Shown here one piece after another: positions 4,241 through 19,585 of a stretch of DNA of 20,056 nucleotides. Position 1 is the stretch's first letter; each line of letters opens with the position of its first letter. The translations under genes and the position numbers were made by a program. The notes beneath the pieces are model-generated. The model saw only the letters and a list, made by a program, of their open reading frames with translations, was not told the origin of the DNA and did not search any database. Location of the stretch: NCBI GenBank assembly GCA_003152955.1, contig PMBQ01000020.1, forward strand, positions 1-20,056, written 5' to 3'. The stretch comes from Candidatus Bathyarchaeota archaeon. Lineage in GTDB: Archaea; Thermoproteota; Bathyarchaeia; 40CM-2-53-6; FEN-987.

Positions 4241-5242
4241 TCAGGTCCCGATCTGTGTGAACTTCATCTGATGCCATGGGCTGTTAAGCCTCATCTGACC
4301 TGACCAAATGATCTGAGTGATGAATGCATCCTGATTCGGCGGGCGCATCCAACCCTCTTCCGGCATGTCAAAATTGGCCCCGGCAAACACCCACACGTCC
4401 CAATCCCCGAGATTCAGCTCGTAAAGGAAATGGGCCGGGCAGAAGTCGTCAAACGCCATTGTGACGTTCTGGAACTTCACGCCGCCAAAGCCGAGGTCTG
4501 CAACTTCCTGGTCAAAGCGGAAGGTGTTGATCCCCGCGATGTCCTGGTAAATGTTGTAGATCGTCTTGGTCGTGAGGATGAGGTCCGGGCCGTGAGCGTG
4601 TGTGGCGTTGGTGTAACCCGTCCTCATGAGCGAGGGCAGGTAATCCGTGCTCGTCGGGTCCTTGAGATTTGCCGCAGGATGAGCTGTCGAGTCAACGTTG
4701 GCCCTCCACGACGCATTGGCCGCAACCGTGCGGTCGATGTTGGCGTACGTGGCTATGCCTGACGCAGTTCCATCGTCCACCGCGACTTCAAGACCGTAAA
4801 GCCCCTGCTTGCCGCCAACGGGTGAACCGTTGGAGTAAGCATCGGCGTACATCACGTCCTTGAGCGTGTCTGTCGCGTTTTCGTTCTGGACCTTCAGGAT
4901 ATCGAGGAGCTTCTCCATCGAGCCTGAATTCTTGCGTTTTTCCGTCCCGGAGATTGCAAGCGCCGCGTAATACGATGCTTCCGAAAGCGTCGCTTGAACC
5001 GTTGGGTTGATCGGCTGGTTGGAGAACACGTCGTAACCCGTGAACCGTCCGACCGCCGCGTGCTTCCTGATGATCACATCCCACTGAAGAGCTGTCCCAA
5101 CGAAGGTCTGAACGCGTCCCGAAACAAACAGTCGGTTCCACAGCGGAGACTGATTGTACAGGATGTTCTGAACCGTGGGGATGAAATGCGCCCTCGTCAC
5201 GTTGTTAAGGAATGCGGTGTCGAGACCACCTGAACCTGGCAT
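4241..5242 (-). CDS. Major capsid protein, probable HK97 fold
   Basis: A 333-residue protein. The N-terminal arm LDTAFLNNVTRAHFIPTVQNILYNQSPLWNRLF is followed by a spine helix region (about residues 95-135, EASYYAALAISGTEKRKNSGSMEKLLDILKVQNENATDTLKDVMYAD), a Gly/Ala-rich loop, and a late segment DLILTTKTIYNIYQDI typical of the A-domain region of phage coat proteins. The C-terminus ends in W..PPNQDAFITQIIWSGQMRLNSPWHQMKFTQIGT, a final strand pattern seen in capsid proteins that interact with an upstream scaffold. It has AAAGGAACAAAG before its ATG. It lies directly downstream of an acidic scaffold-like protein and upstream of a decoration-like protein. Confidence 0.85.
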   Translation of the reverse strand: MPGSGGLDTAFLNNVTRAHFIPTVQNILYNQSPLWNRLFVSGRVQTFVGTALQWDVIIRKHAAVGRFTGYDVFSNQPINPTVQATLSEASYYAALAISGTEKRKNSGSMEKLLDILKVQNENATDTLKDVMYADAYSNGSPVGGKQGLYGLEVAVDDGTASGIATYANIDRTVAANASWRANVDSTAHPAANLKDPTSTDYLPSLMRTGYTNATHAHGPDLILTTKTIYNIYQDIAGINTFRFDQEVADLGFGGVKFQNVTMAFDDFCPAHFLYELNLGDWDVWVFAGANFDMPEEGWMRPPNQDAFITQIIWSGQMRLNSPWHQMKFTQIGT

Positions 5243-8240: not shown

Positions 8241-10670
8241 CTATTGGTGAGATGAATTAATATGTGGATTTTCAGGTAAACTACTGTCCGGTTCTGTGCC
8301 ACCCTCGGGCTGTTGTGACGTGACGCCCTCACCCATGAGTTCCCGGATACCGCGCTTCCTGACCGCGCCCATGAGCGTCTTTTTAGTCTTGATATCAGCG
8401 GCCTGTTTCTTCTGCATGTCGGCCATCTTCTCCAACCCCATCTTAAGGGCTTCCGCCATCTGATAATACTCACCCTCACGCCCAAGTCTCGGGTCAAACT
8501 CAGCAAGTACGTCAAGCAAAGCTTCACGCGGCACATAGGGTGAACCGTCCGGTGACGGGGTACGGGCCAAATTCATTAAGAACTGGAGCTTATATTCAAA
8601 CCGCTGTGGGAAGTTGGAATTGGCTCGGACCGAAACCATGAACTCCGGTACATCCTTCATCTGGGGCTTACCGTCCGGTCCCTGAATCTGGAATTTGGAC
8701 ACCATCTCCGAAACGTTAATGGCTTTGGGAATCCCGTTCTGGAAGAATATACGGGGTTCCGTATAATGTTCTTTCCAGAACCGGATACGGGTCTTGATCA
8801 CGCCTTCAAGGGTGTCGGAAAGACGCTGATTAGGCTCCCCGGTGAGCATTACCTGATTCTGGGCCTGAAGAGTCTTAACCATCTCCGCGGATGTATTGGC
8901 CCCCGGCGACTGTCCGAACGAGGTTTCATTGACCCCGAGCTGTTTGGCCGCATTCGCCTTCAGATGGCCGTAAATTGCCATGTTGGTGTTTGGAACCAGA
9001 GCGCCACGGAACACCGGGGGTTGCTTGGTGAATATCGGCTTGAGCGGGTCATTGTCATAGGCCGCTTCGTCGAGATTCTCCTTGTCCTCCTCATTGAAAT
9101 ATGCCTTCTGCATTCCTGCCGAAATCGCCATGTCAGCGTCCCGGCTGAGCATGGTGTCCAGACCCTTATTGGTGTTGAAGAGCACCTCAGGTACGCCGCG
9201 CCCCCAGAAGGAGTAAGGTATCTTTTCATAGTACCAGATATGGACCAAATCGCGCCAATCTTCCACATCTTTGATCGGTTCGTCCTCGAGTACGATACCG
9301 CCAGCTATGACAATCTTACGACCGGCAGGATATCTCGGATTTTCATTCGGATTGATGCCTACCGCCGCATCCGACTTTATTTTTTCCGCGTGCTCCTTTA
9401 TGTGGTACACCATAAGCTCCGCCATGGCGGTCATGCGCTGTATGTCCTCAGGCTTGGTACCAGGGAATTCAATACCGCTCTGCCCCGGCTGAGGTTGCTC
9501 ACCTTGTGGTTGAGGCTGAGGACTCTGTTCCTCCTCGGGTTGGGGTTGCTCTTGGCCCTGCTCTTCCTGAGGCTGTGGCGGTTGGCCCTGCCCTGCATCC
9601 CCGGTTGGAGCGCCTTGTCCTTCCGGTTGCATCTGGGCAGGACCTTGCTGACGAATCTTCGTCGCCGCCTCTATCTCCTTGCCCATCTCAGTAATGAACT
9701 TAAGGTGCGCCTCGATGTGCGCCTTATGGTTCTGGTCCGGATACACTTTTATAGGCACACCCTCCGAAGTCGCATGGTGCTCAAGCGCAATCTCTTCCTG
9801 ATCTACCGAGGGTTTGTCTATTTTAGGGTCATCCATGAGCACCGTTATCATCGGTGTCATTTTGGTATGAGTAAAGCTCTTAGTGGCGGTCTGTTCAAGA
9901 TCAAGCGAGAGCCGTGCAGACTTTGCAATATCAGCAGACATAGTATCAAAACGTATTCGCTCCTCCGTCCGGTGGAGCTTTGGATACATCTGGAAAATCT
10001 GCTGTTCGGGCACCAAGGTGGTAATACCGAGATACCAGCATCCGCCGAGCTTTTCCAGCGAAGTGGCAAACGGCGTCGGGAACAGACTTTCGTTATCGAG
10101 CAGAAGTTCCTTCGCCACCCCGTCCGGATAACGGGTTCGGTCAAGGAAACTAAACCACGTAGCCATACCCTCAGTAAGGCCCCGTTGTACACCTTGAATA
10201 ACGGAATCCCCCCACTTGGTCCGCTGACGTTCCTGGTTGAGCACGTCCTGTATGCCCCGGATATTGGGCATCACGTCAATGTCATGCCAGTTAGACGTTA
10301 AATGAGACTTCTTCAGGCGTATCTGGTCCTCAATCTCCGGGTCCTGAAGCTCCTGCTTCCACTTATCCCCATCTCCCTCATTCCTTCGACCCCACACGTC
10401 CCAATGCATCCCTTCCTCAAGACGACGCGCCAGCCTGAACCAATCGTAGGGGTCCCAATACCGCATGCGCCCACCAAAAGACACCTTTCTCCAATCGTAG
10501 GACTCCCGCCAGATAGACATTACATAGTTTACCACCTTCTCTTCATCCTTCTGGTCCGGAATGTCGGCCACCCCGCCATAGTAGTTTGCATCGTACCATG
10601 CGGTTGCGCTACGGGTAGTCTCGGATATTGTTTCCTTGACTTGACGAAGTATGTTACGAATTGATTTCAT
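8241..10670 (-). CDS. Portal protein
   Basis: An 809-residue protein whose ATG overlaps the terL stop as ATGA. The order terS, terL, then a large protein ahead of scaffold and capsid marks it as the portal, the dodecameric ring through which DNA enters and leaves the head. Visible portal-like features are a Trp/Tyr/Arg-rich N-terminal region, a middle region that resembles the wing/stem (EDWRDLVHIWYYEKIPYSFWGRGVPEVLFNTNKGLDTMLSRDADMAI), and a helical C-terminal region (FPQRFEYKLQFLMNLARTPSPDG...). An insert at about residues 341-400 is almost entirely Q, P, E and G. The length is in the range of large podovirus portals. Confidence 0.85.
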   Translation of the reverse strand: MKSIRNILRQVKETISETTRSATAWYDANYYGGVADIPDQKDEEKVVNYVMSIWRESYDWRKVSFGGRMRYWDPYDWFRLARRLEEGMHWDVWGRRNEGDGDKWKQELQDPEIEDQIRLKKSHLTSNWHDIDVMPNIRGIQDVLNQERQRTKWGDSVIQGVQRGLTEGMATWFSFLDRTRYPDGVAKELLLDNESLFPTPFATSLEKLGGCWYLGITTLVPEQQIFQMYPKLHRTEERIRFDTMSADIAKSARLSLDLEQTATKSFTHTKMTPMITVLMDDPKIDKPSVDQEEIALEHHATSEGVPIKVYPDQNHKAHIEAHLKFITEMGKEIEAATKIRQQGPAQMQPEGQGAPTGDAGQGQPPQPQEEQGQEQPQPEEEQSPQPQPQGEQPQPGQSGIEFPGTKPEDIQRMTAMAELMVYHIKEHAEKIKSDAAVGINPNENPRYPAGRKIVIAGGIVLEDEPIKDVEDWRDLVHIWYYEKIPYSFWGRGVPEVLFNTNKGLDTMLSRDADMAISAGMQKAYFNEEDKENLDEAAYDNDPLKPIFTKQPPVFRGALVPNTNMAIYGHLKANAAKQLGVNETSFGQSPGANTSAEMVKTLQAQNQVMLTGEPNQRLSDTLEGVIKTRIRFWKEHYTEPRIFFQNGIPKAINVSEMVSKFQIQGPDGKPQMKDVPEFMVSVRANSNFPQRFEYKLQFLMNLARTPSPDGSPYVPREALLDVLAEFDPRLGREGEYYQMAEALKMGLEKMADMQKKQAADIKTKKTLMGAVRKRGIRELMGEGVTSQQPEGGTEPDSSLPENPHINSSHQ

Positions 10671-12376
10671 ACGTAGCTCGGGTCCCTATATGCACGGCGC
10701 GTGGACAAAGACCTTGCCTTCTTCCTGCATCTTTCGATGTGCCGTTCAACCATATCATCCTGTGTACGTATTTCCCGTTCCCCCGACTTTGGCTTGCCCG
10801 GCTTTCTGAAGTACACGGCCATATAACGCACGAGATCGGCACCGTCCTTGAATTTGACCTGCACAAGTTCAGTTGGGCCGTTTGCCTCAAGGCTGGTGGA
10901 AGACTGTTGTTTCCTCGAATAGTGCGTCATGGAGAACCACGTGTTATCGCAGGTCTCCCCGATCATCATTTGAGTGGTATTGTCAGGGCTGATATGGAGA
11001 AATTCCCTGACCACTTGATGGCCAGTGTCGATGTCGTCAAGAACGTCAGTTGTGAAGTGAAGCGGATACTTGAGCTTCGTTCCGCAGTCCCGGTAGTGGC
11101 CTGAAATAGTTCTTCCAACGGCTTGATCAGGCTTTTTGCCGAAATTAGGGTCCATGACTCTTGTGATGAGCTTCGGATTCCATCCATTTCGCTCCTCCAC
11201 CTTCTTTATCCACTCGGCGGTCTGCTCTATGGTGAGCTTCCATTGGCCCGGTTGGTAGTCGTAGAACTTCTTGAACTCCGAATTGTGCTTTGCATTGGGA
11301 AACTCATCAATCATCCAAATGGAACCCCATCGGTCCACGGCAAACCAACCAATCATGGGAGGCTTGGAATCGTGCGGGTCACAGATGCAGAATATCTTGT
11401 AGTTAGTCTTTCCGTCCGCGTACTCAGTCTCCGAGACCGTTTGATTGAAACTTTTGGCATCGCGCTGGTGTCGGTTAACAGCCGGATGAAGACCTTTGTA
11501 CACGAGGCCAGATAAGTGAGCGAAAGTTCCGTGGGCGCGTGCATCCCTTTCATCGGGGTCATATTGCTCGATTAATTCCGCAACCCTTTGATGTGATAAT
11601 CTGCCCCGGACCCCATGCTCAGCACAGTTTTCTTCGATGTCGCCGTACAGGACCTCCACCGGGGAAGTCTGACCCGCTCCGTCTATTAGGTCGTCCTTAA
11701 TCCAGGCGGAATAGGTCAAGGGGGTCATTGGCATCATGATGATCGGATGGCCGATCGTCATTCGGGCGAGGACCGCATTATAAATGGCTTTGGGAGGCGG
11801 CTCATCGAACACAGCGATACCGATTTTGTCTGATTCGAATTTGTCTGTGGCCTGATCGTAAGTCTTAAACGAACCAACCCATCCTGTATCTGAAGTGAAT
11901 CGGGAGTTGAACTCGCGACCTGACTTGGTGAAAGAATAACGCCCTTCCGGGAACCACTTCTTGATCTCGTTTTCCGAGTCCGAGTCAACGCCGCAGATGA
12001 AGTCCTCAAGGGTGCTCCTCTGTGATATGTACCAAAATTTCTTGGGCGCATCCCATGGGTCATCAAACCGGGGGCCGTTGTACCACTTCGAATTTTGCAC
12101 ACCCCAGATGATGTTGCCTAGGACATTGATGGTGGACGCAGATTTGGTAATGGAGTTTGCAGCGGGGAGGACGAAAATCCATTTGTCCATCTTATGCCCT
12201 ACGGCATGGATGAACTTCTCGGCCCAGCCATTGGGAACGAAATACTTGAGCGGATTTTCGCGTTTCCTCCGCTCAAGTTCAGCCTTGGCGAGTTGCGCGA
12301 TCATCTCCTTGGCCTTGGGGGACCGGGCCTTCAGGAGCTTCTTAACCTCGCCGTATGTCTGGGTCTGGACTTCCAT
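10667..12376 (-). CDS. terL: Terminase large subunit (ATPase and nuclease)
   Basis: A 569-residue packaging motor protein. It pumps DNA into the procapsid through the portal and cuts the concatemer. The ATPase half shows a P-loop region at residues 71-80 (PAANSITKSA, with Lys78) and Walker B at 185-192 (IGIAVFDE, Asp191 and Glu192). The P-loop lacks the usual Gly before Lys. The nuclease half (RNase H-like) has candidate metal ligands Asp333 (FCICDPHD), Asp409 (RVMDPNFG) and Asp514 (KDGADLVRYM). AAGGAAG precedes the ATG, which overlaps the upstream stop as TGATG; the downstream portal overlaps by ATGA. Identification is confident; the catalytic residues are inferred by position. Confidence 0.92.
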   Translation of the reverse strand: MEVQTQTYGEVKKLLKARSPKAKEMIAQLAKAELERRKRENPLKYFVPNGWAEKFIHAVGHKMDKWIFVLPAANSITKSASTINVLGNIIWGVQNSKWYNGPRFDDPWDAPKKFWYISQRSTLEDFICGVDSDSENEIKKWFPEGRYSFTKSGREFNSRFTSDTGWVGSFKTYDQATDKFESDKIGIAVFDEPPPKAIYNAVLARMTIGHPIIMMPMTPLTYSAWIKDDLIDGAGQTSPVEVLYGDIEENCAEHGVRGRLSHQRVAELIEQYDPDERDARAHGTFAHLSGLVYKGLHPAVNRHQRDAKSFNQTVSETEYADGKTNYKIFCICDPHDSKPPMIGWFAVDRWGSIWMIDEFPNAKHNSEFKKFYDYQPGQWKLTIEQTAEWIKKVEERNGWNPKLITRVMDPNFGKKPDQAVGRTISGHYRDCGTKLKYPLHFTTDVLDDIDTGHQVVREFLHISPDNTTQMMIGETCDNTWFSMTHYSRKQQSSTSLEANGPTELVQVKFKDGADLVRYMAVYFRKPGKPKSGEREIRTQDDMVERHIERCRKKARSLSTRRAYRDPSYV

Positions 12377-12774: not shown

Positions 12775-12957
12775 TTAGTTGATGTGATGATGGAGCAGGT
12801 CAACCACCCCCATCAATTGAAGAATCCAGATGATGACGATCGCGATGAGAAGGACGTTGATTCCAAACTTTGCCGGTGGAGGAGACATGTAGGCATTGTT
12901 GGCCCAGAACGCAACACAGATCAGAACGAGAATGAAAATTGCGACGACGAGATCCAT
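12775..12957 (-). CDS. Small two-helix membrane protein, holin-like
   Basis: A 60-residue protein with GGAGGATTCA before the ATG. Two hydrophobic helices are evident: residues 2-19 (DLVVAIFILVLICVAFWA) and 33-52 (INVLLIAIVIIWILQLMGVV). The short loop NNAYMSPPPAKFG separates them and the tail is DLLHHHIN. The pattern resembles the small Thivi_2564-type membrane proteins, and small two-helix proteins in phages are often holins. No catalytic or lysis partner is in the window. Function unassigned; holin is a possibility from size and topology only. Confidence 0.7.
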   Translation of the reverse strand: MDLVVAIFILVLICVAFWANNAYMSPPPAKFGINVLLIAIVIIWILQLMGVVDLLHHHIN

Positions 12958-12968
12958 TGAATCCTCCG

Positions 12969-13691
12969 CTAGTTGGTTGCTTGTGCAAGCTTGGCTAACG
13001 CTTCATCATCCAGCCCCGCCAGTTCCCTGACGACGAGGATTTTCTTGGTACCTTCATCCTTGATATTGACGGTGGACTTCCAGCTCTGAGGGTCCCGGTT
13101 CGTAAGCCAGGCCATCTGTGCGTTGACATCGGGCGGGATATGTTTCTTAATGCGCTTTTCCTTGGCGGTCGTACAGCCTTCCTCATCTACCGAGGATTCA
13201 ATCGTCACCTCATCATAGCTGTATCCTAAAGCGCGTCGGAACAAGCTCTCAGCCACGAGCCTGTCAGCCTCGGCCTTTCCCCGGTTAAACACGGAACCAA
13301 GGATGCGATCGCGCTTACATTGAGCCATGAATCGCTTACTGGTAACCCCAAGGATTTCCGCAGTTTGTTCCTGAGTGAGACCCGCCCTGGCAAGCTTTTC
13401 AACGAAGGCGAGAAATGTAAGACGTTCGGGTGCAAGCTTTCCGTCCAGAAGCGGTGAGTCGCTAACCGGGCTTCGACTGTACTCCAAGTTTTCAAGCTGG
13501 GTTGATTTTCCACGGTTGGCCTCAAGGCGGGTGATGAGGTTGGTTACTTCCTGCTTGTAATCGATTGGGTCCTCAGGTGGAGGAACGGATTCCCTGAGCT
13601 TCGCCGCATCAGCGGCCTGTGCTTTAAGAATCTCAGGGGGGACGGAACTGAGATCAGGCTTGAACGTGTTCCGGGGCTTGTGGGCCGACAT
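12969..13691 (-). CDS. terS: Terminase small subunit
   Basis: A 240-residue protein that would recognise phage DNA and load it on TerL. I place the start at MSAHKPRNTF (13691), with AAGGGTGG upstream, rather than the in-frame Met at 13748, because a candidate promoter -10 lies at 13752-13757. Residues 105-127 (LTQEQTAEILGVTSKRFMAQCKR) form a helix-turn-helix. FRRALGYSY (151-159) and AQMAWLTNRDPQSWK (191-205) are typical terS oligomerisation-region signatures. A charged N-terminal extension precedes the DNA-binding domain. It is the first gene of the leftward operon. Confidence 0.85.
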   Translation of the reverse strand: MSAHKPRNTFKPDLSSVPPEILKAQAADAAKLRESVPPPEDPIDYKQEVTNLITRLEANRGKSTQLENLEYSRSPVSDSPLLDGKLAPERLTFLAFVEKLARAGLTQEQTAEILGVTSKRFMAQCKRDRILGSVFNRGKAEADRLVAESLFRRALGYSYDEVTIESSVDEEGCTTAKEKRIKKHIPPDVNAQMAWLTNRDPQSWKSTVNIKDEGTKKILVVRELAGLDDEALAKLAQATN

Positions 13692-13751
13692 TACGCCACC
13701 CTTAGAGAGAATGAAGGGGTAAAGATCAAGGTGGGTCCTCCAGAGCAAAAG

Positions 13752-13781
13752 ATTATATTGGAATTACTTAATGGTAATGAA
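13752..13781 (-). promoter_or_regulatory. Candidate sigma-70 promoter for the leftward packaging operon
   Basis: On the minus strand, TATAAT (13752-13757) is preceded by TTCATT (13776-13781) at an 18-bp spacing in AT-rich DNA. The predicted transcript would start around 13745 and reach the terS start at 13691. The -10 is exact but the -35 matches the TTGACA consensus at only three of six positions. It is the only good candidate seen between terS and the divergent control region. Confidence 0.45.
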
Positions 13782-13794
13782 ATATGAAGGCAAG

Positions 13795-13804
13795 AAGCAT
13801 GCTT
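13795..13804. promoter_or_regulatory. Perfect 10-bp palindrome AAGCATGCTT
   Basis: A self-complementary site just upstream (for leftward transcription) of the candidate terS promoter, with a half-site-like AAAGCATT 8 bp further right. Candidate binding site for a repressor or activator of the leftward operon; short enough to be chance. Confidence 0.3.
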
Positions 13805-13868
13805 ACAGAAAGCATTAAAATTATGTAATGGGGTATGGTAGCAAGAAGGCAGACAGCCTGTAGGAACA

Positions 13869-14165
13869 CTTGCTTCCCTCTTGGGTCCTCTCGGGTCCCT
13901 CGCGAGGTCCTGCGGGGGTGGGGTCTGGGTCCTCTGGTTGGCTCCCTGCTGGCTTGCCCCTTGCTCCTTGCTGGCTTGCCCCTTGGGGCTTGCTGGCTTG
14001 CTGGCTTGCCCCTTGCCCCTTGCTGTCAAGCTGTCAGCAGAAAGCTGACAAGGTGACAGGGTTGCTCTTCCCTGCCCTCTTGCCCCTCTCTGCTTGCCCC
14101 TTGCTGTCTGCACGCTTGCTCCCTGTCTGCTTGCTTCCTGCCCTCTAGCCCCTCTCGCTCCCGCG
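13869..14165. repeat. Adenine-depleted tract with imperfect GCTTGCCCCTTGCT repeats
   Basis: Over 297 nt the plus strand has adenine only at 13905, in the dyad (14028-14058), at 14112 and at 14147. The run 13906-14027 is 122 nt with no A at all. Short degenerate units such as CTTGCCCCTTGCT recur (around 13953, 13974, 14005 and 14093). The minus strand is correspondingly free of T. Such asymmetry is typical of origins, R-loop-prone tracts or recombination hot spots. It ends in a hairpin TCTCGC-TCCC-GCGAGA (14153-14168); CCTCGCGAGG (13898-13907) is a perfect palindrome near its left end. Confidence 0.75.
14023..14059. promoter_or_regulatory. 37-nt dyad built of TGTCA repeats
   Basis: Two 16-nt arms, CTGTCAAGCTGTCAGC and GCTGACAAGGTGACAG, are complementary at 13 of 16 positions with a 5-nt spacer AGAAA. 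The inner seven pairs are perfect. Each arm carries two TGTCA motifs, so there are four copies, two on each strand. It interrupts the adenine-free tract. Candidate operator, replication initiator site or cruciform. Confidence 0.6.
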
Positions 14166-14260
14166 AGACCGGGGGACGGACGACACCCACAAGAAAGCAG
14201 GCTCCAGACGCCGCGCAAGCCCCACTCAAGCACCCAAGGCACGCCACAGGGAGGGGGTGA

Positions 14261-14275
14261 CTGCCAGCTTGGCAG
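14261..14275. promoter_or_regulatory. Inverted repeat CTGCCA-GCT-TGGCAG
   Basis: Perfect 6-bp arms with a 3-nt spacer, operator-like, about 190 bp upstream of the TGGCACG box at 14451. No partner known. Confidence 0.35.
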
Positions 14276-14305
14276 ACACGCACGCCAGCTTGACCGTCCT
14301 CTCAA

Positions 14306-14366
14306 CAGGACAGTGAGCCACAAACGGAGAGGGCCGCTGGACGGGCCTTCTGCTTGCACTGTCCTG
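14306..14366. repeat. 10-bp inverted repeat flanking a 41-nt loop
   Basis: CAGGACAGTG (14306-14315) and CACTGTCCTG (14357-14366) are exact reverse complements. The right arm runs into the shared TGCGGA leader element of the 14540 gene. It could form a stem in DNA or RNA, or hold two inverted protein-binding sites. Confidence 0.45.
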
Positions 14367-14384
14367 CGGAGTGAACACCAATGT
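14361..14384 (+). promoter_or_regulatory. Leader element A, copy 1 (TGCGGA element)
   Basis: A 24-nt segment containing TGCGGAGTGAACA. It matches copy 3 (16709-16732) at 19 of 24 positions, including TGCGGA and TGAACA. Its TGCGGA starts 86 bp upstream of the TGGCACG box at 14451. Confidence 0.5.
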
Positions 14385-14405
14385 CTCAAGGACAGGACAC
14401 TTGAG
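14385..14405. promoter_or_regulatory. Dyad CTCAAG-N9-CTTGAG, possible activator site
   Basis: Perfect 6-bp arms with a 9-nt spacer. The centre lies about 80 bp upstream of the start site predicted from the sigma-54-like box at 14451, a range where enhancer-binding activators of sigma-54 promoters bind. No homologous dyad was seen at the other two copies. Confidence 0.35.
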
Positions 14406-14429
14406 GCAAGGCGGGGTGGCCAAGGCGGG

Positions 14430-14465
14430 GTCCGTGGGCCACTCGGACTCTGGCACGCCGTTTGT
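14430..14465 (+). promoter_or_regulatory. Sigma-54-like promoter, copy 1, with upstream GTCCG-CGGAC dyad
   Basis: TGGCACG-CCGT-TTGT (14451-14465) matches the sigma-54 consensus TGGCACG-N4-TTGC except for the final C, a position that is usually conserved. GTCCG-N9-CGGAC (14430-14448) ends 2 bp upstream. A start site near 14477 would give a leader of about 50 nt before the ribosome site of the GTG start at 14540. Direct neighbours are shared with copies 2 and 3. Confidence 0.5.
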
Positions 14466-14539
14466 GGTTTTTCCAGCGTGGCCTTGCCCGCAGAGAGCGG
14501 GCCGAGTTGGCCAACGACACAACACCCAAGGAGGCTCAA

Positions 14540-14956
14540 GTGAGCAAGCACAAGAACGGACGACCTTCACCCCTTCCCTCTGCGACACCAGCAGACCTCG
14601 CCGCAGAAGTCACACCCGAAGTCACCGCCACCTCCACACCCGAACCTGAGGTCAAGGTGAAGAAGTCCAAGCGCCTCACGGAGGAGAGCCTCCGGGCCCG
14701 CTTCCCCGGTGTCGTCCCCGGTTCGCTCCACTTCGAGACCGAAGGCACGCACAAGGGCAAGCAGACCATGGAGAGCCTCTTGGAGTGCGGCCACACCGTC
14801 CGGCTCGCCACCTCGGACCTCTTCCAAGTGACCGCGTGTGAGGACTGCAGGAAGGACGTGCTCCGTGAACGCCGGAAAGCCAAGCGGCACGAGAAGGCGG
14901 AGGCACGCAAGGCAGCCAAGGCAACACAGGCAGCGGACGCACTCGCAGCGGCCTGA
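14540..14956 (+). CDS. CGH/CxxC core protein with Lys/Ala-rich tail (paralog 1)
   Basis: A 138-residue protein beginning (GTG)SKHKNGRPS, with AAGGAGG 5 nt before the GTG. A longer in-frame reading from 14462 would begin inside the promoter box. Residues 1-45 are disordered (Pro, Thr, Ala, Glu). The core, about 48-105, includes LECGH (81-85), TSDLFQV (91-97) and ACEDCRK (99-105), so Cys83, His85, Cys100 and Cys103 could bind zinc. The tail is Lys/Arg/Ala-rich and helical. The same core recurs at 19070-19585: the 25-residue stretch LECGH to CRK shares 16 identities. It is followed by a strong terminator, so it is probably a single, highly expressed gene. Nucleic-acid binding is likely; function unknown. 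Confidence 0.75.
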   Translation: MSKHKNGRPSPLPSATPADLAAEVTPEVTATSTPEPEVKVKKSKRLTEESLRARFPGVVPGSLHFETEGTHKGKQTMESLLECGHTVRLATSDLFQVTACEDCRKDVLRERRKAKRHEKAEARKAAKATQAADALAAA

Positions 14957-14982
14957 GGCCCAAGCGCAGACAGGCCGCGACA

Positions 14983-15015
14983 GCCCTCCCCTTGACCAGG
15001 GAGGGCACCTTTGTG
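14983..15015 (+). terminator. Intrinsic terminator after paralog 1
   Basis: GCCCTCCC (14983-14990), loop CTTGACCA, GGGAGGGC (14999-15006): a perfect 8-bp GC-rich stem followed by ACCTTTGTG. The U tract is weak but the stem is strong, and it lies 26 nt after the stop codon. Confidence 0.7.
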
Positions 15016-15137
15016 TCTTGGATGAAGAACGGCCAAGACCAGACACCCAGGCAGACGAATGAAGATCAAACAACTCACGTCATCGATCAAACTCAAACAC
15101 ACTCAGATGTTGGGTGACCTACGGAATGAACAGTGCC

Positions 15138-15161
15138 GTATTGCGGAATAGACAATCAAAC
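15138..15161 (+). promoter_or_regulatory. Leader element A, copy 2
   Basis: GTATTGCGGA followed by ACAAT. The first ten positions are identical to copy 3 and 17 of 24 match overall. Its TGCGGA lies 63 bp upstream of the TGGCACG box of the 15274 gene, against 86 and 87 bp in copies 1 and 3. Confidence 0.5.
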
Positions 15162-15204
15162 CCAGACGAATGGGCCAGGACGCAACGAGCGGCCAAATCG
15201 TCAT

Positions 15205-15219
15205 TGGCACGGCGTTTGC
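15205..15219 (+). promoter_or_regulatory. Sigma-54-like promoter, copy 2, exact consensus
   Basis: TGGCACG-GCGT-TTGC matches the -24/-12 sigma-54 consensus at all eleven defined positions with the correct N4 spacing. A start site near 15231 would leave about 30 nt before the AAGGAGA ribosome site of the 15274 gene. The surrounding sequence up to GG after TTGC is shared with the other two copies. Sigma-54 recognition is inferred from sequence alone. Confidence 0.6.
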
Positions 15220-15273
15220 GGCATTCCCGGTGGTGGGGTGGTCCCGCCACACATCAAACCAAGGAGAAGTTCA

Positions 15274-16026
15274 ATGAGCCAAGCTGAAATTCTCGAGAAG
15301 ATCAAGAAGCTTCTCGCACTCGCCACGTCCCCGAACGAGCACGAAGCCAAGCTGGCCGCGCAACGGGCATCCGAACTAATGGAGAAGTACCAAATCGATG
15401 AGGCTGAAGTCCTCCTCAAGGCAGAGGAGACCAAGAGCGACCCGATAGTTGAGGAACTCTACACGGTCCCCAACCAGAAGATGAAGCTAAACTGGATTGG
15501 AACTCTCGGCCACGCATCCGCGATCCTGTTCGATGGAACCACGCTTATTGACCGTGGACTCTGGGGCACCCGCTTCAGATTCGTCGGCCACAAGTCCGAC
15601 ATCGAACCAATGAAGATGATGTTCGAACACCTCTACCGCTCGTGGTTCAGTATTGTGGAATCCGATCTGCAGAATGCCAAGGACGACAACAAACTTTCCT
15701 CCAACCCCCGCACGTGGACCCCATCCCTTACCATGAAATTCAAATCCGGACACGGACTCGCGTTCTCGATGGCTATATCCAGCCGATGCGCAGAACTCGC
15801 CCTCCAGAGGAAGCGGAAGGTCGAAGCATCGAGTAACACCGGGACCGCGCTGATTCTGGTCAAGGGACAAGCGCTCAATGAATGGAAACAGATGAAGGGA
15901 GTGCGGAACGCCAAAGTGAACCACAGTGCCGGGAATTACCTCGGCAGACAAGCTGGGCAGAAGGCAGGAGAGAACATCGCCCTTGGTGGAGCAATTGGGA
16001 GCGGTGCCAAACAACTTAACCAATAG
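15274..16026 (+). CDS. DUF2786 domain protein
   Basis: A 250-residue protein. Residues 1-45 (MSQAEILEKIKKLLALATSP, then NEHEAKLAAQRASELMEKYQIDEAEV) are a clear DUF2786 domain, a helical pair common in phages and actinobacteria. The rest has the pattern of the C-terminal domain often joined to it: a Trp-rich strand segment, FRFVGHKSDIEPMKMMFEHLY and FKSGHGLAFSMAISSRCAELALQRKR. AAGGAGAAGTTCA precedes the ATG. An open in-frame extension to a GTG at 15133 exists, but the N-terminus here is the usual DUF2786 start. The family's role is not established; nucleic-acid binding is a common guess. First gene of an operon continuing at 16039. Confidence 0.8.
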   Translation: MSQAEILEKIKKLLALATSPNEHEAKLAAQRASELMEKYQIDEAEVLLKAEETKSDPIVEELYTVPNQKMKLNWIGTLGHASAILFDGTTLIDRGLWGTRFRFVGHKSDIEPMKMMFEHLYRSWFSIVESDLQNAKDDNKLSSNPRTWTPSLTMKFKSGHGLAFSMAISSRCAELALQRKRKVEASSNTGTALILVKGQALNEWKQMKGVRNAKVNHSAGNYLGRQAGQKAGENIALGGAIGSGAKQLNQ

Positions 16027-16040
16027 TGAGGCCACACTAT
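16023..16040 (+). promoter_or_regulatory. Hairpin over the start of the 16039 gene
   Basis: ATAGTG-AGGCCA-CACTAT, a perfect 6-bp stem. Its 3' arm contains the first two bases of the ATG at 16039 and its loop plus adjacent stem bases carry the GAGG ribosome site. The upstream stop codon lies in the 5' arm, so a translating ribosome would open the stem, coupling the two genes. Confidence 0.5.
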
Positions 16041-16146
16041 GAATGAAATTCTTTCAGTAATCGCAGTAACGCTCCCCATTTGTCTGTTCCTGACCGGAGC
16101 GCTCGTTTACGGTCTCCACCGCATCATTCAAGCAGGGAGGAGATGA
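16039..16146 (+). CDS. Very small single-pass membrane protein
   Basis: A 35-residue gene: MNEILSVIAVTLPICLFLTG, then ALVYGLHRIIQAGRR and a TGA stop. One hydrophobic helix spans residues 4-25, followed by a basic tail, so the N-out/C-in orientation is likely. GAGG lies 8 nt upstream. The stop overlaps ATGATG of the next gene. Small one-helix proteins in early phage regions can modulate membrane functions, but nothing identifies this one. Confidence 0.55.
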   Translation: MNEILSVIAVTLPICLFLTGALVYGLHRIIQAGRR

Positions 16147-16346
16147 TGCTAACCACTGACAAATACTGGGACTGTGAGTGCGAATGGCACTACATCCACC
16201 CCAAGACATGCAAAAAATGTGTCCGGTGCGGAACCGAGCAGGAAACACAACCGGATAGCATGAAGGTGGAAGTCCGAATCATGAACAAAGTCTCAACCAC
16301 CAACCTCGGCCACATCTGCATGATACCGGGGGCCAGCCATGCCTAA
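16146..16346 (+). CDS. Small cysteine-rich (zinc-binding) protein
   Basis: A 66-residue protein. Cys10, Cys12, Cys22, Cys25 and Cys28 lie in WDCECEWHYIHPKTCKKCVRCG, a CxC...CxxCxxC arrangement typical of a zinc ribbon, followed by EQETQPDS and a beta-like tail. GGGAGG lies 5 nt before this ATG (2 nt before the alternative ATG at 16143), so I chose 16146. It overlaps the next gene by 8 nt. Probable small nucleic-acid- or protein-binding adaptor. Confidence 0.7.
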   Translation: MLTTDKYWDCECEWHYIHPKTCKKCVRCGTEQETQPDSMKVEVRIMNKVSTTNLGHICMIPGASHA

Positions 16347-16707
16347 ACCATCGCCCGATGCCCGAATCAACCACCCGCGCTCCAAGACACCAAAGCAAAC
16401 AAGGGTGACGAACGAACTCATTAAACGCATACGCAGAACCGAAATTTACAATGAAATGACTTCGGTCCTCATCGAGAACCGTGGATGGCAAGCCACAATC
16501 ATTTTTCAGGAAAGTGCGGAGGTTATGCCTCTCCTTTTCGATGTGGTTAAACACGTGAGCGTTGTCATGCGGGACCTTGGTAGTATAACCGTACTCGATG
16601 TTCACGGTCACACAAAACTATCCGAGAACGGGGCAAGATACCACCAAATCCGAGTTTTAATCAAGCTCCACAAGGAACACCCACATAAAGACGGGAGGAA
16701 GAATTAG
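16339..16707 (+). CDS. Hypothetical accessory protein
   Basis: A 122-residue basic protein. The N-terminus MPKPSPDARINHPRSKTPKQ is disordered. Residues 22-45 are helical and basic (RVTNELIKRIRRTEIYNEMTSVLIE). The rest alternates strands and a helix (ATIIFQESAEVMPLLFDVVKHVSVVMRDLGSITVLDVHGHTKL), an alpha/beta pattern. It overlaps the upstream gene by 8 nt and ends in TAGTG, where a GTG could start a leader peptide. The ribosome site is weak (GGGGG), so expression probably depends on coupling. No family recognised. Confidence 0.65.
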   Translation: MPKPSPDARINHPRSKTPKQTRVTNELIKRIRRTEIYNEMTSVLIENRGWQATIIFQESAEVMPLLFDVVKHVSVVMRDLGSITVLDVHGHTKLSENGARYHQIRVLIKLHKEHPHKDGRKN

Positions 16708-16708
16708 T

Positions 16709-16732
16709 GTATTGCGGACTGAACAATAATGT
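16709..16732 (+). promoter_or_regulatory. Leader element A, copy 3
   Basis: GTATTGCGGACTGAACAAT and following bases; the best-preserved copy. TGCGGA lies 87 bp upstream of the TGGCACG box, 1 bp different from copy 1. It begins inside the TAGTG overlap at the end of the upstream gene. Confidence 0.5.
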
Positions 16733-16770
16733 TCACGAGACTATACACTCAAGCCAAGCCCGATGGCCCT

Positions 16771-16814
16771 GTCCGATGCGGACGGGGAACTCCGGGCATT
16801 GGCACGCCGTATGC
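16771..16814 (+). promoter_or_regulatory. Sigma-54-like promoter, copy 3, with GTCCG-CGGAC dyad
   Basis: TGGCACG-CCGT-ATGC (16800-16814) matches the sigma-54 consensus except for A in place of T at the first base of the -12 element; the GG and GC dinucleotides are kept at 10-bp separation. GTCCG-ATG-CGGAC (16771-16783) lies 16 bp upstream, echoing copy 1. A start near 16826 precedes the GGAGG at 16831-16835. Confidence 0.55.
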
Positions 16815-16844
16815 GGTGGTACGGGGTATCGGAGGACACGAATC

Positions 16845-17054
16845 ATGCCCAAACTCAGATACAAGGTCAGTCATACAGGTGGTAAGTTCGGATTTTGGTG
16901 GGTGATGGACGGGCTTTACTGCCTCTGTAGGTGTGAAAATGGAGTAGATGCGGCCAAAATCTCCACCGCACTCAACTACCACCATGAGCACATCAAGGCT
17001 AATATTAAAGACGAGGCCGAAGCTCCAACACACCTCCGAAAGATATATGACTGA
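16845..17054 (+). CDS. Small hypothetical protein
   Basis: A 69-residue protein starting MPKLRYKVSHTGGKFGFWWVMDGLYCLCRCENGVDAAKISTAL. GGAGG lies 9 nt before the ATG. A strand-rich N-terminus with CLCRC is followed by a His-rich helix (NYHHEHIKANI). An in-frame extension to GTG at 16707 is open, but it would translate the shared leader. The 3' end overlaps the next gene by 8 nt. Function unknown. Confidence 0.65.
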   Translation: MPKLRYKVSHTGGKFGFWWVMDGLYCLCRCENGVDAAKISTALNYHHEHIKANIKDEAEAPTHLRKIYD

Positions 17055-17322
17055 GCGTACCAAAGTTGTGAGAGAGAATCTGCTCCGTGCTGTGGCGATG
17101 CACAAGGCCAACAAGTTCACGTTCACACCGGGGGAGAAGAAGTTCATCAACAGATTTCACATCCTCGACTCGGGAGACGTGATTTGCTCCATTCCTTATG
17201 TCGGCCACTTCAAGACCGCCGAGGAGATACCCACTAAGATCGTCAACAAACTACACCGTCTTGTGAATCCTGTTTGGGAAGGGTCTGATCGAGATACGGC
17301 TTCGCATAGGTACGGCAGATGA
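17047..17322 (+). CDS. Small hypothetical protein
   Basis: A 91-residue protein starting MTERTKVVRENLLRAVAMHKANKFTFTPGEKKFINRFHIL. The start overlaps the upstream gene by 8 nt. The ribosome site is poor (GAAAG), so coupling probably matters. A helical N-terminus is followed by short strands (GDVICSIPYVGHF) and a helix (TAEEIPTKIVNKLHRLV). No family recognised; the ATG was chosen because upstream in-frame Met codons lie deep in the preceding gene. Confidence 0.6.
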   Translation: MTERTKVVRENLLRAVAMHKANKFTFTPGEKKFINRFHILDSGDVICSIPYVGHFKTAEEIPTKIVNKLHRLVNPVWEGSDRDTASHRYGR

Positions 17323-17343
17323 TACTCAATCCGCCACAAGGGT

Positions 17344-17364
17344 CACGATGGAGGTGCCATCGTG
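17344..17364 (+). promoter_or_regulatory. Perfect hairpin burying a GTG start codon
   Basis: CACGATGG-AGGTG-CCATCGTG: an 8-bp stem with a 5-nt loop. The ribosome site GGAGG straddles the stem and loop, and the last three bases of the 3' arm are the GTG start of the next gene. It should block initiation unless melted or bound, or act as an operator. Confidence 0.6.
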
Positions 17365-17586
17365 ATTGAGAATCCGAATCGCGAAGACATGCTCCTGCTC
17401 CAGCTTAGACACAGACTGGAATTGGAGATACGCGGACTCAAGGGCCAGTTCTCAGCGTACGCGATGGCCAAGCGGCACTACAAGCTAAGCGGAAGCCGAG
17501 AGCGCGTACTCAGGGAACTCAACCTCCTTTGGGAAGAAGTGCTGGAACGCAGACGGAAGGAGGCCAAGAATGGCATACCTCGTTAA
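17362..17586 (+). CDS. Small helical protein with GTG start inside a hairpin
   Basis: A 74-residue protein starting (GTG)IENPNREDMLLLQLRHRLELEIRGLKGQ. GGAGG lies 7 nt upstream of the GTG. The protein is largely helical with a repeating Leu/Arg/Glu pattern and ends in a basic helix (LNLLWEEVLERRRKEAKNGIPR), so a coiled coil or helical dimer is likely. It overlaps the next gene by 17 nt. Unknown function. Confidence 0.65.
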   Translation: MIENPNREDMLLLQLRHRLELEIRGLKGQFSAYAMAKRHYKLSGSRERVLRELNLLWEEVLERRRKEAKNGIPR

Positions 17587-17863
17587 AGTGGACGTGGAAC
17601 ACAGGGACAAAGGTGCGGACCGTTTCGTTCACGACAACGAATACACACTCAATTTTCCCACACTCAAGAGCGCCCTGCTGGAGGTGGTGGAAGACACGCG
17701 AATTTACCACAGCGGATTCGTTGGCCGAGTGATGGAGAATGGTGTTACCAATGGCTGGGCTTTTGAGTACCGAGGAGACTACGGTCCAACGATGCGCAAG
17801 ACAATCACATTCTTCAAAATCAACGTAATAAGCATACCAATACACCCTTTGGAGGTGAAATGA
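17570..17863 (+). CDS. Hypothetical alpha/beta protein
   Basis: A 97-residue protein starting MAYLVKVDVEHRDKGADRFVHDNEYTLNFPTLKSALLEVVED. AAGGAGG lies 6 nt upstream. A strand, a loop, a helix (LKSALLEVVEDTRIYH) and further strands suggest a compact alpha/beta fold. The ribosome site and start can form GCCA-AGAA-TGGC, a weaker version of the hairpins at 16023 and 17344. The stop overlaps the next start by ATGA. No family recognised. Confidence 0.7.
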   Translation: MAYLVKVDVEHRDKGADRFVHDNEYTLNFPTLKSALLEVVEDTRIYHSGFVGRVMENGVTNGWAFEYRGDYGPTMRKTITFFKINVISIPIHPLEVK

Positions 17864-18234
17864 GACTGAGAAACCCGATCAAGGCCCTGCTTAACGCGGT
17901 GTCCAAACCCCGCGAAAAGCTGACCAAAACCCCGAGTGACGGGGGCTTGCACCCCATCGCGGCCCTGCTCCGTCAGGCTTCGGAAGCGGAGGCGGCATTC
18001 GCCAAACTGGCGAACGATCGGAAAAAGCGGAATGCCCTCCGCAGGAAACGCCGGGAGGATTCCGACAGGAAGAGGGTCCGGAAGCCGAAGATGAATGAAG
18101 CTAACCCGAAGCACGTGGTTGGTCCCGTCCCCTCTTATGACGCTCTTGGAGGTGGAACGCCGCCCTATCATAAAACTGACTCCACACGCCCCGGTTGGGC
18201 AAGGAAACGTGACCGGAGAAGGGAGGACCGATGA
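17860..18234 (+). CDS. Strongly basic small protein
   Basis: A 124-residue protein with very many Lys and Arg residues: MRLRNPIKALLNAVSKPREK, then a helix HPIAALLRQASEAEAAFAKLANDRKKRNALRRKRREDSDRKR, and a disordered tail ending RPGWARKRDRRREDR. TTTGGAGGTGAA precedes the ATG, which overlaps the previous stop as ATGA. The composition suggests nucleic-acid binding or an RNA-binding regulator, but there is no motif to confirm it. Coupled to the next gene by ATGA. Confidence 0.7.
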   Translation: MRLRNPIKALLNAVSKPREKLTKTPSDGGLHPIAALLRQASEAEAAFAKLANDRKKRNALRRKRREDSDRKRVRKPKMNEANPKHVVGPVPSYDALGGGTPPYHKTDSTRPGWARKRDRRREDR

Positions 18235-18575
18235 TAGGACCGGGTACACGTATCTGCCTCGATTCAACAAAAGTAGAAAGCATCATCCCGTCATTCATGC
18301 ACACTCTGGCAGAGAATTTACCTCTGATGTATCAAGAAGTGATGAAATCCATACCGCCTGAATTTGTGGACGAAAATGGAGAGTTTCGAGCCTTGGCTCT
18401 GGATGACGTGCTCTGGAAGACCGATCAACTTTTCTGGTGGTTTCACGAAGACCTCTGGGAAGCAATGGAAAAGATGGAACCAGTAGGTTGCCATTTTGGA
18501 ACCCGAGTATTGGCGGATGGCATATGGTTTGGCTATTGGTCAGATACTTTTGCACGAAAGGAGGTGGCGGGGTGA
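18231..18575 (+). CDS. Hypothetical acidic, Trp-rich protein
   Basis: A 114-residue protein starting MIGPGTRICLDSTKVESIIP. GGGAGG lies 4 nt upstream of the ATG. The middle is helical and rich in Trp, Phe and Glu (DDVLWKTDQLFWWFHEDLWEAMEKMEP), and the C-terminus has short strands (GIWFGYWSDTF). The 3' end overlaps the next start as GTGA. An acidic partner following a very basic protein hints at an interaction pair, which is inference only. Confidence 0.7.
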   Translation: MIGPGTRICLDSTKVESIIPSFMHTLAENLPLMYQEVMKSIPPEFVDENGEFRALALDDVLWKTDQLFWWFHEDLWEAMEKMEPVGCHFGTRVLADGIWFGYWSDTFARKEVAG

Positions 18576-18847
18576 TTAAAACCACACTCAAAGTGATTCA
18601 GTTAAACGAGCACACAGACCCGGATGTAAGTGTGAACCCTGTTATAACGGCTGTGTGGTACACCCTTGTATATGAACTTCGCGGAGTACAGTGTCAGACC
18701 GACAGCACAACGCATAGTTACAAAGCGTTAAGTCACACTCAGCGAAATCTCGCCATCCAATCGCTTAATGACGAAATAGCTGACACGATGAAACAGATGG
18801 GATTTACCAGAGGTGCGATACAAAGCGCAATAGCGAGACGAAGATGA
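18572..18847 (+). CDS. Hypothetical accessory protein with GTG start
   Basis: A 91-residue protein starting (GTG)IKTTLKVIQLNEHTDPDVSVNPVITAVW. AAGGAGG lies 7 nt upstream of the GTG, which overlaps the previous stop as GTGA. Strands in the first half (VITAVWYTLVYELRGVQCQTDS) are followed by helices (SHTQRNLAIQSLNDEIADTMKQMGF) and a basic tail. Overlaps the next gene by ATGA. No family recognised. Confidence 0.65.
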   Translation: MIKTTLKVIQLNEHTDPDVSVNPVITAVWYTLVYELRGVQCQTDSTTHSYKALSHTQRNLAIQSLNDEIADTMKQMGFTRGAIQSAIARRR

Positions 18848-19032
18848 TCATAGTTCACATTGATTGGGACGATATAATCATGGACGACTTCGGGGAGGTG
18901 ATTAAAGGGTACGTCTGTGAGTACAGGTCAAACGGTAGAGAAACTATTCTGACTGACATGCAGAAAGTGGTGTCAAGGCACGTTGTACATGTTGAATACA
19001 AGCTTCATTTTGCAACATGCTTCATCAACTAA
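18844..19032 (+). CDS. Small hypothetical protein
   Basis: A 62-residue protein starting MIIVHIDWDDIIMDDFGEVIKGYVCEYRSNG. The ATG overlaps the previous stop by ATGA; the ribosome site is weak. Acidic beta-strands with a short helical part; two Cys. Its 3' end includes the inverted repeat at 18988-19019. Unknown function and moderate coding confidence. Confidence 0.55.
   Translation: MIIVHIDWDDIIMDDFGEVIKGYVCEYRSNGRETILTDMQKVVSRHVVHVEYKLHFATCFIN
18988..19019. promoter_or_regulatory. Inverted repeat CATGTTG-N18-CAACATG upstream of paralog 2
   Basis: Perfect 7-bp arms (18988-18994 and 19013-19019) with an 18-nt spacer, about 50 bp before the start of the 19070 gene and inside the end of the preceding one. 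Candidate operator or RNA hairpin. No TGGCACG-N4-TTGC box was found here; AGGCACG at 18977 lacks the -12 half. Confidence 0.4.
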
Positions 19033-19069: not shown

Positions 19070-19585
19070 GTGGCATCAAAGCGCGAACGTCCCGTTCTCC
19101 CGACCGTGAAAGAGGTCGAGGCAGCAAAAGCCAAAGCGGTAAAGCCCGAGAAGACTCTCGAGTCCCGCGAAGCCGCGCTCCGGGAGAAGTACAGCGACAA
19201 GAAAATCACCAAGGGGTCCATCCAGTTCGACTCCACCCACAACAAGTACTCGGTCGAGATGAGACTCGAGTGCGGACATGACGAGCGCGTCTTCACTTCG
19301 GACGTGTTCCAGGTCAAGGCCTGCCACGAGTGCAAGAAGGCGAAGTCCAAGGAGAAGCTCGCCGCGCTCAAGGCGAAAGCCCCGAAGAAGGACGCACCCC
19401 CGGTCAAGGGAAAAGTCGAGAAAGCCGCCCCTGCACCGAAAGCGGCCAAGACCCCGGCGAAGGCCGTGAAAGCCAGCCCCCCGCCCAAGGATGATGTTAC
19501 TGGCGGACCCGCTGACGACTTCGCTCCCGCGCCGACCAACGGCAAGAGCAAGAAGGGCAAGCAGATCGCGGACCTGATTGGTTGA
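19070..19585 (+). CDS. CGH/CxxC core protein with H1-like tail (paralog 2)
   Basis: A 171-residue protein starting (GTG)ASKRERPVLPTVKEVEAAKAK, with CAGGAGG 5 nt upstream. The core, about residues 35-90, holds LECGH (66-70), TSDVFQV (76-82) and ACHECKK (84-90); Cys68, His70, Cys85 and Cys88 are candidate zinc ligands. The tail (about 90-171) is Lys/Ala/Pro-rich like histone H1 and ends KGKQIADLIG. It is paralogous to 14540-14956, sharing GTG start, ribosome-site spacing and a following strong terminator, but is longer. Likely a DNA-binding or nucleoid-like protein; the function is not known. Confidence 0.75.
   Translation: MASKRERPVLPTVKEVEAAKAKAVKPEKTLESREAALREKYSDKKITKGSIQFDSTHNKYSVEMRLECGHDERVFTSDVFQVKACHECKKAKSKEKLAALKAKAPKKDAPPVKGKVEKAAPAPKAAKTPAKAVKASPPPKDDVTGGPADDFAPAPTNGKSKKGKQIADLIG

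Follow-up and report, generated by a model that had tools for sequence, protein, structure and literature searches.

Phages mostly rely, for the transcription of their genes, on the housekeeping sigma factor of the host or on factors of their own. According to PMC5053324, the Pseudomonas phage YuA (Yuavirus) strictly requires host sigma-54 for its development, a kind of usage that the paper describes as rare; in the YuA record (NC_010116), three fragments of the particle/lysis region are annotated 'high activity, -24/-12 consensus'. On the bacterial side, TGTN12ACA is given as the consensus of the three QseF upstream activating sequences of the E. coli glmY sigma-54 promoter (excerpt of PMC6075780), and a TGTCN10GACA site is given in a source that equates glrR with qseF (excerpt of PMC8745638). 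In the MG1655 sequence, we located the three TGT-N12-ACA sites of glmY at -230, -197 and -134, and its sigma-54 box at -27. The enhancers of sigma-54 promoters often lie about 70-150 bp upstream (excerpt of PMC3844500), or about 100-150 bp according to an excerpt of PMC7057263. Here, we examine a stretch of 20,056 nucleotides (contig PMBQ01000020.1, positions 1 to 20,056; hereafter the window), in which three copies of a -24/-12-like box, each preceded by a pair of dyads, stand in front of small genes. We consider it probable that these are three enhancer-plus-sigma-54 promoter cassettes of about 105 bp (cassettes 1 to 3, or P1 to P3), which would drive units of small genes through the RpoN and an activator of the host.

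The cassettes resemble YuA in that phage promoters are predicted to work with host sigma-54, and they resemble glmY, which is activated by QseF/GlrR, in carrying TGT-N12-ACA sites upstream of a sigma-54 box. They also share the -24/-12 architecture of psp (PspF) and other bacterial sigma-54 operons, Salmonella pspA itself having TTGT at -12, but those are operons of the host, whereas the promoters here lie in a phage. Of the 11 consensus bases, no more than 8, 6 and 6 are found in the annotated YuA fragments, whereas the window boxes have 10, 11 and 10; unlike the particle/lysis promoters of YuA, the window boxes precede small accessory genes. They also come with paired dyads. YuA is also absent from the 18 records that match the window terminase. 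In contrast with glmY, where there are three sites and help from IHF, the phage has two sites 22 bp apart, from -118 to -77, and a scan of the cassettes gave no IHF-like site. What is new here is the near-perfect boxes, the pairs of dyads that resemble the enhancers of a known type of activator, the different phage lineage, and the association with accessory rather than particle genes. In searches of open-licence papers, none of the titles and abstract beginnings listed pointed to a phage for which a pair of sigma-54 enhancers had been described.

Boxes and paired dyads

The three boxes had been reported in the original prediction, and they are all present on the + strand with the sequences it gave: TGGCACG-CCGT-TTGT at 14451-14465 (cassette 1), TGGCACG-GCGT-TTGC at 15205-15219 (cassette 2) and TGGCACG-CCGT-ATGC at 16800-16814 (cassette 3). 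Their counterparts on the record of a sister phage (L001, also G001), which is presented below, lie at 8744-8758, 9734-9748 and 11874-11888, respectively. A strict search with TGGCACGNNNNWTGY gives exactly three matches in the window, all on the + strand, against a shuffle mean of 0.03, and none of 100 shuffles had three. Looser patterns are at chance level, both in the window (56 found and 56.2 expected at 3 mismatches) and in L001 (5 found and 6.0 expected at 2 mismatches). Relative to the sigma-54 consensus TGGCAC-N5-TTGC, the boxes match 10, 11 and 10 of 11 bases, box 2 being the exact -24/-12 consensus as had been claimed; GG at -24 and GC at -12 are found at the fixed spacing, boxes 1 and 3 differing by one -12 base. 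These two deviations had been put forward as a reason to think of another polymerase. They are real, and the same variants occur among the Salmonella sites listed in the part of PMC3844500 available (TTGT in pspA, ATGC in zraP and fdhF). Among the six boxes of the two phages, three of the four spacer bases vary, while TGGCACG, the T at the fourth spacer position and TG are invariant.

We built a position-specific scoring matrix (PSSM) of 15 bases from the 29 intergenic Salmonella sigma-54 sites listed in that same part of PMC3844500; scored without leave-one-out, these sites range from 13.4 to 19.1. With this matrix, the three boxes take ranks 1-3 of the window (16.9, 15.1 and 14.8), and those of L001 score 17.6, 14.6 and 14.6, while shuffled windows carry 0.5 sites scoring 13 or more. 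The predicted starts, at about 14477, 15231 and 16826, would give leaders of 63, 43 and 19 nt, each with a good ribosome site, which bears out the earlier description of their distance to the start codons. A simple consensus scan, whose both-strand totals were near the shuffle mean, found no sigma-70-like promoter on the + strand of window 12900-18850 or L001 7200-16400.

The alignment of all six regions revealed a second conserved block upstream of the box. It consists of two tandem 18-bp dyads, TGT-N12-ACA, separated by a 4-bp gap, hence with a period of 22 bp, and the distance from dyad start to box start is 91, 90 and 92 bp in cassettes 1, 2 and 3. This places the dyads at about -118 to -77 relative to the predicted start, that is, at the distance at which enhancers of sigma-54 promoters are found, and their pattern is the one of QseF/GlrR-type sites. 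In cassette 1 (14360-14399, + strand; L001 8653-8692), the dyads occupy 14360-14377 and 14382-14399, the second being an exact TGTC-N10-GACA. In cassette 2 (15115-15154, + strand), each of the two is one mismatch off TGT-N12-ACA, and in its counterpart (L001 9644-9683) one has a mismatch and the other is exact. Both are exact in cassette 3 (16708-16747, + strand; L001 11782-11821), where they begin directly 3' of the stop of ORF 16339-16707. Taking the two phages together, 9/12 units are exact and 3/12 have one mismatch; G2 and the final ACA never vary (12/12), and the stricter TGTC-N10-GACA is exact only in the second unit (unit B) of cassette 1 in both phages (2/12).

The self-similarity of the upstream element shows a single peak at 22 bp (0.62), all other shifts from 8 to 29 giving 0.13-0.39. 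A position weight matrix built with one promoter left out recovers the omitted promoter in both phages with scores of 26.9-46.5, the best other site scoring 10.2. Tandem dyads with at most one mismatch in each unit were found at only three places of the window (14360, 15115 and 16708) and, in the sister, only at the three L001 places, with none in its other three pieces; as the ends of the pieces share 13-101 bases, an element lying across either of two of the joints could escape this search. In 200 shuffled windows, boxes had a mean of 0.02, and dyads with a box 60-120 bp away occurred in 0/200. By aligned columns, conservation is 81% for the box, 65% for the upstream element, 52% for the stretch between dyads and box, and 45% downstream; a value of 31% obtained for the dyad-box stretch among the paralogs was discarded as an underestimate, shifts of 0-2 bases having been ignored. 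When 24 sources (373 kb) were scanned with a model of the cassette based on sequence alone, the six copies used for its training were the only matches. The sigma-54 reading of the original prediction is thus strengthened by paired TGT-N12-ACA dyads at enhancer distance in 3/3 copies of the window and 3/3 syntenic copies of the sister.

The sister phage and wider searches

The window is, to judge from its genes, a fragment of an uncultivated tailed phage. It encodes a terminase (10667-12376), which matches Terminase_6N weakly (E 6e-4, slightly short of the Pfam cut-off) and is 33% identical to an annotated large terminase, and a major head protein (4241-5242, phrog_9953); both lie with other ORFs on the - strand, the small genes following on the + strand from 14540. 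A protein search found a protein identical to the window terminase encoded on a 20226-base contig; no near-identical phage was found in the annotated phage collection, and the terminase as a single query gave no match in IMG/VR. The sister phage (IMGVR_UViG_3300032893_000040; 65,636 bases) was found through its DUF2786 protein, which is 81% identical to that of the window; its terminase is 77% identical, and the matching stretches are collinear, the longer ones having 67-78% DNA identity. A search of the whole sister record for TGGCACGNNNNTTG, which extends the earlier suggestion to look for the box beyond the window, gave 11 matches with at most one mismatch (1 for the reversed control), and exactly three perfect ones, at L001 8744, 9734 and 11874, which are the same three gene boundaries as in the window.

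The genes behind the cassettes have been less stable. In the sister, an additional ORF (L001 about 9822-10004) stands between cassette 2 and DUF2786, and a further one (9311-9646) precedes this cassette; behind cassette 3, the next ORF of the sister (L001 11918-12151) matches the window's following ORF over 44 residues. The first genes behind cassettes 2 and 3 thus differ between the two phages, while the cassettes are retained. Cassettes that stay while the surrounding genes change are what would be expected of promoters.

Beyond this pair, a profile made from 30 of 96 terminase homologs led to 54 loci. These carry 13 boxes with at most one mismatch, and the upstream element is present only at three of them, in L017, which is the sister itself. 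The locus L018 (54% terminase identity) has only 910 bases upstream of its terminase match and thus stops short of the cassette region. The pattern of the upstream element alone gave 14 stretches in IMG/VR, two of which are the sister's; the other 12 have no TGGCACG within 160 bases, two of them having a looser TGGYAY. We also looked for a host regulon with the element-plus-box pattern in a genome collection, and rejected the two stretches obtained, in Coriobacteriales and Ktedonobacteraceae metagenome-assembled genomes, as their number is by rough estimate at chance level.

Four canonical sigma-54-like boxes were observed in a second lineage, three on the - strand of L070 (3825, 4074 and 4102) and one on the - strand of L066 (1172), with terminase identities of 25% and 27%. 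They score 15.3-18.1 with the 15-base matrix and lie in a noncoding gap between divergent blocks, upstream of structural genes and pointing away from them; one box is conserved between both records, as is a block that precedes it by about 60-105 bp. The exact TGGCACNNNNNTTGC has 4 matches in 23 records, all in L070/L066, and the reversed control has 3, in three other records; because the control count is similar, this case depends not on the number of matches but on their clustering, three lying within about 290 bases, and on their conservation. The conserved upstream block is unlike that of the window: none of the three L070 boxes has a TGT-N12-ACA at up to 250 bases, and the L066 box has two, at -184 and -164. 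The CATTGATATT-plus-box pattern derived from these records gave 8 stretches, whose flanks, by eye, are common only to the two known records.

Proposed host activator and alternative readings

The original prediction left it open whether the activator would be the host's or encoded by the phage. Of these two, the host's is favoured. A loose search found no Sigma54_activat match in the sister record, which is possibly incomplete (the control matched 14/14 genomes); Sigma54_DBD was likewise without match in the sister (control in 4/14 genomes), and no GAFTGA-like motif exists in the six frames of the 20-kb window fragment or of the sister pieces. The proposed search for an enhancer-binding-protein gene or an rpoN-like gene thus found neither in the sister. 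In the whole records of 23 of the 54 terminase loci, Sigma54_activat had no match. As the sister shows no activator domain, sigma-54 or GAFTGA, host RpoN and a host activator would be the likely drivers of the cassettes. The site pattern points to QseF/GlrR, and other NtrC-family proteins may share it. With respect to the host itself, the sister endolysin is of the GH108 type, and its 383 matches are largely in phages that infect Gram-negative bacteria, with 140 for Vibrio and 87 for Acinetobacter. Pseudomonas phages account for most matches of the DUF2786 protein (199/207, at about 28% identity among the matches listed), and weak relatives of the capsid occur in phages of Myxococcus and Bradyrhizobium (4/7 records).

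Several observations weigh against our preferred interpretation. The chief one in sequence terms is the low score obtained when the matrix is extended to 18 bases (to -9): the window boxes then reach 11.3, 9.7 and 11.6, the lowest known site being at 15.4, and an unrelated window site at 3162 outscores them (13.1); of the L001 boxes, two have 10.3 and 10.1, the third ranking below the best seven. The scores are low because GG follows the -12 element. Indeed, where the Salmonella sites are A/T-rich from -11 to -9, the boxes have GG at -11/-10 in five of the six cases and TG in the sixth, which is atypical for sigma-54; in our judgement, A/T at these positions is a tendency of the family and no absolute requirement. 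In addition, two further places of the sister score within the known range with the 15-base matrix (L019 11010, 14.2; L021 1914, 13.7), tandem dyads by themselves, at up to one mismatch in each unit, do arise in the 200 shuffled windows (mean 0.45, maximum 4), and no IHF-like site was found in the three cassettes with the textbook consensus used for the scan. Finally, Arthrobacter phages are among the PurZ (105/206) and terminase (8/18) matches, and Actinobacteria are not known to have sigma-54.

One could also read the element of about 105 bp as a structured RNA leader, riboswitch-like or bound by a protein, in which the box would be the 3' arm of a hairpin and transcription would start further upstream. 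We find this improbable, even if the inverted repeats between dyads and box, which sigma-54 does not need, count in its favor and against the promoter interpretation. They are best seen in cassette 3, in the fold of which TTGGC of the box pairs with GCCAA within a stable inverted repeat (window 16753-16803, L001 11827-11877), and the full element has a z of -4.35 in the window and -2.81 in the sister. For the dyad-box stretch, the z values of window and sister are -1.97 and -0.82 in cassette 1, -3.18 and -0.96 in cassette 2, and -4.50 and -3.58 in cassette 3. The consensus fold points the same way (RNAalifold energy z of -3.5 on the + strand, only 1/300 column shuffles being as low), as does a small stem, G-N3-TTTG-N3, which pairs in 23/24 cells, a level reached by random spacers at 1.5e-5 to 5e-3 depending on the null. 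However, the reverse strand folds equally well (z -3.7, 0/300), and the structure conservation index is only 0.27. The full-element z is 0.08 in window cassette 2 (-3.43 in the sister), -0.80 and -1.70 in cassette 1, random 119-nt windows having -0.38 with a standard deviation of 1.16, and the ortholog-pair z is weak for cassettes 1 (-0.26) and 2 (-1.42), with -2.97 for cassette 3. The covariation of the short stem was matched by 49/500 shuffles, and the stem appears in 0/6 folds of 30 nt, though it is present in a longer fold of sister cassette 3. No Rfam family reaches its gathering score in the window, and a low-threshold scan of the cassettes gave only weak matches (E 2.3 or more). The upstream part with the highest conservation is a tandem dyad of the type that DNA-binding proteins recognise, and the scan of the + strand gave no sigma-70-like promoter further upstream. 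We tentatively read the fold signal as DNA inverted repeats, strongest in cassette 3, more than as a conserved RNA.

The other polymerase evoked in the original prediction survives as an equally low-ranking rival, in the form of a phage-specific promoter: box and upstream repeats would be recognised by the host core polymerase equipped with a sigma-70-like factor of the phage, or by another phage factor. The sister indeed encodes, downstream of the cassettes, a 211-aa protein (L001 15655-16290) with weak matches to Sigma70_r2 (E 4.6e-4) and to RNA polymerase sigma factor (E 1.9e-4), and the boxes deviate at -11/-10. A search of 50,697 annotated phage records gave no match for this protein; its gene lies in the + strand block that starts at the cassettes, and cassette 3 may feed it. 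On the other side, both conserved blocks of the box have the spacing and sequence of sigma-54, and no conserved pair of blocks at -35/-10 spacing was noticed, although no test aimed at it was made. No RNA polymerase family matched among the seven large sister proteins scanned, 4/7 of which matched nothing at all, and the search of the sister for single-subunit polymerase (PF00940) was uninformative, the control matching nowhere.

That the boxes would be sites of a repressor or of a replication/partition protein, and no promoters, is very unlikely: tandem repeats upstream of several operons would also fit an operator or an origin, but each window box, from its predicted start, is 19-63 nt ahead of a start codon with a good ribosome site, and the sigma-54 match would then be a coincidence.

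Gene units, surroundings and possible role

The first unit is a single gene of 138 aa with a GTG start (14540-14956, + strand), 64% identical in the sister over the aligned part; by eye, its protein has a zinc-ribbon-like pattern (CGH...CxxC), and it has no family match better than E 0.05. A related zinc-ribbon-like gene lies at about 19070-19585; a cassette is present only before the first of the two, and the pair is kept in the sister. The unit 1 gene is followed by an intrinsic-terminator-like hairpin (14983-15006, + strand), with an equivalent at L001 9254-9281; terminator scan totals were near the shuffle mean, and it is the conservation in both phages that carries the argument for this hairpin. 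Between it and cassette 2, a 30-codon ORF (15059-15151), read by eye, covers most of the dyads, and the longer sister ORF mentioned above (L001 9311-9646) ends where the dyads start. Unit 2 has the DUF2786 gene (phrog_421; 250 aa; 15274-16026, + strand; 81% identical in the sister). Unit 3 starts with an ORF of 69 aa (16845-17054, + strand), without family match at E 0.1 and unmatched among the + strand ORFs of the sister block (blastp E 1e-4). Upstream of the units, the noncoding-looking window region 13930-14140, between the divergent structural and accessory genes, carries imperfect CTTGCCCCTTGC repeats, mostly 22 bp apart, which may be an origin or a regulatory region.

The sister also has a family A DNA polymerase (L019 4386-6689) and a PurZ-like 2-aminoadenylosuccinate synthetase (L019 9508-10644, phrog_1211), with the motif QWGSEAKGK, where E. 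coli PurA has Asp in place of this Ser (QWGDEGKGK) and phiVC8 PurZ has QFGSTGKG. Because of this PurZ-type Ser, the sister DNA probably carries 2-aminoadenine, as in Z-genome phages. The window does not extend to the region of the purZ-like gene.

If the cassettes work as we propose, host sigma-54 (RpoN) RNA polymerase would bind the -24/-12 box and stay there as a closed complex, while a host enhancer-binding protein of the NtrC family, with a QseF/GlrR-like site preference, would occupy the two tandem dyads, on one face of the DNA and about 75-120 bp upstream. The DNA would then loop, and the activator would spend ATP to open the closed complex. The three small accessory-gene units would fire only while the host activator is active.

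In E. coli, QseF/GlrR is an activator of the envelope-stress type. A more specific and rather doubtful proposal is that the three gene sets would answer to a signalling protein of the host that belongs to the QseF/GlrR class, so that viral expression would await a state of the host or the envelope disturbance caused by the infection itself, the ATP-driven opening by sigma-54 being suited to 2-aminoadenine DNA, if present. Should the window phage use 2-aminoadenine like its PurZ-bearing sister, a DNA that is harder to melt would explain the loss of A/T at -11/-10. If the general proposal is true, infection would be tied to a sensory circuit of the host through complete and conserved phage enhancers, and the shortness of the DNA cassette would allow one to test the identity of the sensor directly. 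Together with YuA, and possibly with L070/L066, this suggests that the use of sigma-54 by phages is commoner than recorded.

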